In this document: piece by piece, positions 15,564-28,139 of the stretch | How the letters are laid out: the number at the start of each line of letters is the position of its first letter | Position numbering within the stretch: the first letter of the stretch is position 1 | Assembly: GCA_019347595.1 (NCBI GenBank) | Contig: JAHWLA010000004.1 | Location: 1-32,451, forward strand | Reading direction: 5' to 3' | DNA from: Actinomycetota bacterium | GTDB lineage: Bacteria; Actinomycetota; Acidimicrobiia; Acidimicrobiales; JAHWLA01 | Length of the DNA: 32,451 nt | The notes under the pieces: model-generated | What the model was told of the DNA's origin: nothing | Databases searched by the model: none | The model's input: only the letters and a program-made list of their open reading frames with translations | Translations under genes and position numbers: made by a program

Positions 15564-15615
15564 CCTTCTCGTGTCGGAAATGCGCATGGGGGTGCGCATT
15601 TCCGACACGAGAAGG
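15564..15615. terminator. Perfect 23-bp hairpin (H3), putative terminator after smc
   Basis: CCTTCTCGTGTCGGAAATGCGCA-TGGGGG-TGCGCATTTCCGACACGAGAAGG. Confidence 0.8.
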
Positions 15616-15628
15616 CGGCCGATCCTGA

Positions 15629-15651
15629 CTGTCACACCCCCTCGGTAGGCT
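15629..15651 (+). promoter_or_regulatory. CTGTCACAC-N8-TAGGCT box upstream of ftsY
   Basis: Same layout as boxes at 27985-28007(-) and 28037-28059(+). Confidence 0.6.
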
Positions 15652-27984: not shown

Positions 27985-28007
27985 ATTCTGCACGGGGGGT
28001 GTGACAG
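27985..28007 (-). promoter_or_regulatory. CTGTCACAC-N8-CAGAAT box, 7 nt before PBP ATG 27977
   Basis: Reverse-complement reading CTGTCACACCCCCCGTGCAGAAT. Confidence 0.55.
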
Positions 28008-28036
28008 TGAAGCGATCCGCGAATTGAGCGGTGTCA

Positions 28037-28059
28037 TTGTCACACCCCCTCGCTAAGGT
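28037..28059 (+). promoter_or_regulatory. TTGTCACAC-N8-TAAGGT box upstream of comM-dprA
   Basis: TTGTCACACCCCCTCGCTAAGGT. Confidence 0.6.
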
Positions 28060-28109
28060 GATCGACGTCGCTTCGGCGATCCGTTCCTGCGGCCGGCGTC
28101 CAGGCCCTG

Positions 28110-28133
28110 CTCCAGCAAGAAACCCTCTTGGAG
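28110..28133 (+). promoter_or_regulatory. Leader hairpin enclosing comM Shine-Dalgarno
   Basis: CTC(cag)CAAGA-AACCC-TCTTG GAG; SD GGAG at 28130-28133, GTG at 28140. Confidence 0.45.
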
Positions 28134-28139
28134 CATGCC

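Follow-up and report, generated by a model that had tools for sequence, protein, structure and literature searches.

A probable clade variant of the PafBC DNA-damage promoter upstream of repair and DNA-uptake genes in Acidimicrobiia

The RecA-NDp promoter is the PafBC-dependent promoter, and its consensus has been given as tTGTCRgtg-N8-TAnnnT, with gtg in lower case (PMC5656591). For Mycobacterium tuberculosis, the PafBC motif was described as TGTC(GG/AG/AC)-N10-TAnnnT, i.e., with three tolerated forms, and the PafBC box at lexA was shown to point to the rv2719c operon (PMC8151990). In M. tuberculosis, ssb and, in part, dnaB have also been reported to be under PafBC control. In the study of the Arthrobacter structure, arginine 44 of PafB was called strictly conserved (PMC6789036). 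As for competence, the upstream signals and the regulatory cascade in Micrococcus luteus were stated to be unidentified (PMC12849477).

The window, i.e., the whole 32,451-nucleotide stretch of DNA analyzed, contains three exact matches to YTGTCACAC-N8-YAnnnT where 0.01 were expected, a number reached in 0 of 100 shuffles (Table 1). Two of them had been picked out in the original prediction, which was right about the existence of the boxes, about the 8 nt between the 9-mer and the -10 at both sites, and about the genes downstream (PBP, comM, and dprA), for which Pfam agrees. The third copy, which had been overlooked, precedes ftsY. The pair had been described as face-to-face; instead, the boxes are divergent and stand back-to-back, with 29 bp between the 9-mers and with each promoter reading outward. 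The ATG lies 7 nt past the -10 of the PBP promoter, a leaderless layout, and 10 nt past that of the ftsY promoter. The start of dprA overlaps the stop of comM (GTGA). No LexA palindrome (GAACN4GTTC) was found within -150/+120 of the window sites. G304, a near relative of the same genus with a 99% complete genome, retains the box before ftsY and both boxes of the PBP/comM spacer, spelled TTGTCACAC at comM and CTGTCTCAC-N8-CAGAAT at the PBP gene. Directly upstream of the ftsY box lies an inverted repeat (cttctcgtgtcggaaatgcgcat/atgcgcatttccgacacgagaag, positions 15570-15615) that is probably a terminator or a repeat element.

Table 1. Putative promoters and associated features of the window
Feature	Position	Strand	Description
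Putative PafBC-type promoter of PBP gene	27985..28007	-	CTGTCACAC-CCCCCGTG-CAGAAT (28007-27985), exact match
Putative PafBC-type promoter of comM-dprA	28037..28059	+	TTGTCACAC-CCCCTCGC-TAAGGT, exact match
Third copy, putative ftsY promoter	15629..15651	+	CTGTCACAC-CCCCTCGG-TAGGCT, exact match
Class B penicillin-binding protein (PBP), 627 aa	26094..27977	-	Pfam MecA_N, PBP_dimer, Transpeptidase
comM, 504 aa	28140..29654	+	Pfam Mg_chelatase, ChlI, Mg_chelatase_C
dprA, 356 aa	29651..30721	+	Pfam DNA_processg_A, DprA_WH
ftsY (SRP receptor), 401 aa	15662..16867	+	Pfam SRP54, SRP54_N
comM 5' leader	28060..28139	+	By folding, GCTCCA (28109-28114) and TGGAGC (28129-28134) can form a stem that covers the ribosome-binding site

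A possible hairpin with its 3' arm over the ribosome-binding site was also seen in the comM leaders of about 10 Acidimicrobiia, the arms varying by genome (GCTCC/GGAGC, CCCTCC/GGAGGG, or CCTCCT/AGGAGG). Over 19 comM leaders the folding z averaged -1.5, with a best value of -3.9. These leaders suggest that comM may be subject to translational control.

We then considered the distribution of the box in the assembly from which the window comes (2.34 Mb, 76% complete), taking its regulon from pattern matches. TGTCACAC-N8-YAnnnT gave 19 matches, versus 0 for the reversed pattern, and at 14 of the 19 sites a start codon follows 7 to 10 nt past the -10, as expected of leaderless transcripts. The targets include recA, comEA-comEC, comM-dprA, a LysM-type gene upstream of nrdR (its identity was read from the sequence, without a Pfam match), dgt, a DNA methyltransferase gene, two PBP genes, ftsY, ftsH, and others; sbcD and a RecB-like nuclease gene are preceded by TGTCTCAC forms. 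Several sites precede genes that have no evident part in repair (those of ftsY, ftsH, a cation exchanger, and an ABC transporter). In G304, the box also stands before comEA, ftsH, dgt, the methyltransferase gene, and sbcD, with extra targets in radA, dnaB, a RecB-like nuclease gene, and a ComF-like gene (weak, under the curated cut-off). Targets in G335 are lhr, ssb, SNase, and DUF222 genes, and those in G421 are rpsF, gyrB, RecB-like nucleases, and a UvrD-family helicase. Judged from the genes found at the sites, DNA repair genes are thus prominent among the targets.

Two further features were observed at these sites. Four copies of the box occur on one strand within about 400 bp of a single contig (G421:C10:2404-2804). 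Moreover, CGCTTCCCCCTCG is common to the early leaders (first 40 nt past the -10) of two unrelated transcripts of the window's genome, those of comEA and of a 158-aa open reading frame convergent with dnaE2 (L001 C3 and L003 C24).

The recA gene of the same genome is preceded by TTGTCACAC-CCTCTTCG-TAGGGT, which follows a LexA box, GAACAGACGTTC, at a distance of 45 nt. Upstream recA sequence was available for 64 class genomes; 52 of them had a coding-strand site scoring at least 10, and 1 had such a site on the reverse strand. The motif thus lies upstream of recA both here and in most of the class, and the original prediction was not refuted on this point. Of the other genes named in its genome scan, no box was seen driving lexA or dnaE2 in the direction of either gene, and uvrA and ruvC were not located. 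The named recA promoters form a graded spelling series in one slot: TTGTCGGTG in Mycobacterium and Rhodococcus, the intermediate spellings CTGTCGGAC in Micromonospora, CTGTCAGAC in Actinocatenispora, and TTGTCGTAC in Actinoplanes, and CTGTCACAC in Aquihabitans. The latter has the nearest named recA, and the named loci place the class of the window's genome as Acidimicrobiia. In the lexA/LysM-nrdR spacer (L023), where a LexA box is present, the box is directed at LysM-nrdR and away from lexA; the PafBC box at rv2719c of M. tuberculosis has been published with this same orientation. In G304, the same box adjoins LexA boxes (L118). LexA-type sequences also accompany the box elsewhere. In G016, 13 of 13 HNH genes (L315-L327) carry the box followed by a LexA-type GAACATATGTTC right after the -10, and in G093, which belongs to another class, the box before dnaB is followed by GAACACATGTTC. 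The thirteen G016 genes are paralogues encoding 13E12-repeat-like endonucleases, all in one 2.5-Mb genome and all with GAACATATGTTC at the start site.

At the level of the class, TGTCACACC-N7-YAnnnT was found in 241 of 296 genomes, with TGTCACACCC as the class-wide dominant spelling, a new observation. TTGTCRGTG-N8-TAnnnT gave 0 matches in the window's genome and background numbers in the class. Among 247 genomes covering the whole phylum, the canonical form was abundant in one family set, with 10 to 40 sites per genome in the Streptomyces-like family f29, and the ACAC form was common in Acidimicrobiia and several other deep families; reversed controls gave almost none. In 69 chosen genomes, canonical TGTCRGTG remained at background in ACAC genomes versus 16 to 49 sites per genome in Streptomyces- and mycobacterium-like ones, these labels being based on motif content and on the size of the genomes. 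Across the phylum, canonical TTGTCRGTG and the TTGTCACAC form show reciprocal distributions. The notion of a lineage variant of the RecA-NDp/PafBC promoter gained support, but the variant is less exotic than had been envisaged, TGTCAC being known in M. tuberculosis, and wider than one lineage, extending through the whole class and to some other deep actinobacterial families. A canonical RGTG switch inside the class, suggested by GTGTCAGTG at the recA gene of G286, was rejected, as this genome has only 2 RGTG sites, which is background and points to local drift.

In line with the original prediction, the genome encodes both PafB and PafC. It has exactly two WYL-domain genes, which adjoin each other on the contig that carries pafA, and searches with their products returned PafB and PafC from the complexes solved for mycobacteria and Arthrobacter (E values of 4e-25 and 9e-37), the closest structures being those of 7p5x/9fnd and 6sj9. 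The second gene carries PF19187 (HTH_PafC). A WYL pair was present in nearly all class genomes tested, so that its presence or absence has little statistical power when set against motif counts. In the tested members of the reduced-genome family f85, WYL matches were degenerate or absent, and there were at most 3 motif matches per genome. In about 25 tested class genomes, WYL pairs occurred without an exact TGTCACACC site, and many of these genomes had one-base variants at recA.

Taken together, the boxes are very probably a clade variant of the PafBC (RecA-NDp) DNA-damage promoter and not a new kind of promoter, since the published M. tuberculosis motif already tolerates TGTCAC-N10-TAnnnT. 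By analogy with mycobacteria, single-stranded DNA produced by damage would activate the PafB-PafC heterodimer, which would join sigma-A RNA polymerase. The helix-turn-helix of PafB would then read TGTCACAC in place of a -35 box. The promoter of Acidimicrobiia would be spelled (C/T)TGTCACACCC at about -26, with the -10 TAnnnT 8 nt past the 9-mer, and transcription would begin about 7 nt past the -10, in many cases directly at the start codon. In the window, one box would raise expression of the recombination and DNA-uptake operon comM-dprA and the other that of a MecA_N-type transpeptidase (the PBP).

Alternatively, PafBC might not be the factor that reads a damage promoter of this kind; ClgR or an activator not yet known could do so. 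PMC5656591 cites a claim that ties ClgR to the P1 promoter of mycobacteria, and in G280 there are 12 sites while an intact WYL pair was not found. However, the siblings G277, G377, and G457 have the pair, and the case of G280 is for this reason likely an assembly gap. Moreover, the only WYL proteins of the window's genome are the adjacent PafB and PafC near pafA, and the layout, the recA slot, and the lexA-spacer slot equal those of mycobacterial PafBC sites. We thus regard another factor as unlikely.

With PafBC as the favored factor, the unexpected part of the box regulon is its competence genes: comM-dprA and, in the window's genome and G304, comEA-comEC, which are new members. Across the class, comM had a same-strand site in 19 of 36 genomes, versus 1 on the reverse strand; none of the comM loci tested from mycobacterium- and Streptomyces-like genomes had such a site. 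Of the predicted joining of recombination and DNA-uptake genes to a PBP by this promoter, the site at comM recurs in the class, whereas the PBP link was seen within the genus only. In 11 class genomes (G081, G343, G359, G398, G439, G475, G481, G508, G231, G287, and G290), no or almost no exact motif was found; these genomes tend to lack detectable comM, a hint of joint loss. A search of one open-access library returned no report of the motif in Acidimicrobiia or of PafBC control of competence genes there.

These genes could also be taken as a competence regulon proper, under a dedicated transformation regulator and with recA, radA, and dprA as recombination helpers, and the boxes at comM-dprA, comEA-comEC, the ComF-like gene, radA, and recA in one or both of the two genomes would fit, as would the 11 genomes just mentioned. 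We consider it very unlikely, because repair-only targets are many (lhr, sbcD, RecB-like nucleases, LysM-nrdR, and the LexA-boxed HNH genes), the box adjoins LexA boxes at recA, recA sites remain in G221 and G430, where comM was not detected, and no competence regulator was found. Chance sharing of a C-rich spacer by ordinary sigma-70 promoters is highly improbable: a weak preference for CTTGAY upstream of the sites in the window's genome does resemble a -35 hexamer, but it vanishes across the class recA sites, TGTCACAC is conserved far beyond any -35, the gene set is biased by function, and the reversed control gave 0 matches. Finally, the dyad formed by the two window boxes could be read as one palindromic operator, GTGTGACA-N31-TGTCACAC, through which a homodimeric regulator would act on the PBP/comM spacer, but this has next to no probability. 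Elsewhere in the genome the sites stand singly and have a direction, with the -10 at fixed spacing. In G304, moreover, both boxes are kept although only 16 bp separate them instead of 29 (a 13-bp alignment gap), which fits two independent promoters better.

Returning to PafBC, we examined PafB for residues that vary with promoter spelling (Arthrobacter numbering, PMC6789036). Position 43 is R or H in every PafB read from the ACAC class, whereas canonical PafB proteins have S, N, E, or G there, and position 45 is often A or T in Acidimicrobiia. Position 43 is a possible specificity determinant. The correlation is phylogenetically confounded and has exceptions, since G286 has R43 and yet an AGTG-type recA site, and family f2 has lost R44 while one f2 genome keeps a TGTCACAC recA site; it is therefore offered only as a lead. 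In the f2 genomes G031, G114, G157, G092, and G296 (L269 and L289-L292), R44 is replaced by G, Q, or A, and TGTGACAC occurs at recA in three of them.

A bolder model, which we put forward tentatively and would not yet count on, is that in Acidimicrobiia PafBC might directly control comEA-comEC and comM-dprA together with the repair genes, such that DNA damage would induce competence, and that the PafB recognition helix, which has R or H at 43 and in many cases A or T at 45, might have been altered so that it reads TGTCACACCC and not TGTCRGTG. The boxes before DNA-uptake genes hint that damage may switch on gene uptake in a little-studied class, and they provide a concrete candidate for the control of competence genes in Actinomycetota. 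With the clade variant, the PafBC damage response would reach beyond mycobacteria into a deep actinobacterial class whose members are mostly uncultured. The variant also gives a readable motif for annotating the damage regulon of the class in metagenomes, and natural pairs of PafB helix and promoter spelling for studying specificity change in a sigma-adapting activator.

Compared with known systems, the LexA SOS box (GAACN4GTTC) shares the pathway and often the genes (recA, the G016 HNH genes, and G093 dnaB), but it is a palindromic repressor site of another sequence that adjoins the damage box. The RecA-NDp/PafBC promoter, known from recA P1 of mycobacteria and from other Actinobacteria, shares with the Acidimicrobiia sites the TTGTC core, the 8-nt gap to TAnnnT, the position at recA beside a LexA box, the lexA/LysM-nrdR box facing away from lexA, the repair regulon, and pafBC near pafA. 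In contrast, positions 6 to 9 are ACAC (then CCC) in Acidimicrobiia and not RGTG, the regulon takes in comM-dprA and comEA-comEC, and the PafB recognition helix has R or H at position 43 and not S, N, E, or G. Among the consensus features tested, only the weak gtg (positions 7 to 9 of tTGTCRgtg) is absent from the sites, and although it is weak in the consensus and relaxed in M. tuberculosis, its absence makes them a variant rather than a textbook member. Indeed, the window sites agree with the M. tuberculosis form TGTCAC-N10-TAnnnT (PMC8151990) at every letter, except that the -10 of the PBP site is CAnnnT; TGTCAC, one of three tolerated forms there, is dominant in Acidimicrobiia and extended to TGTCACACCC.
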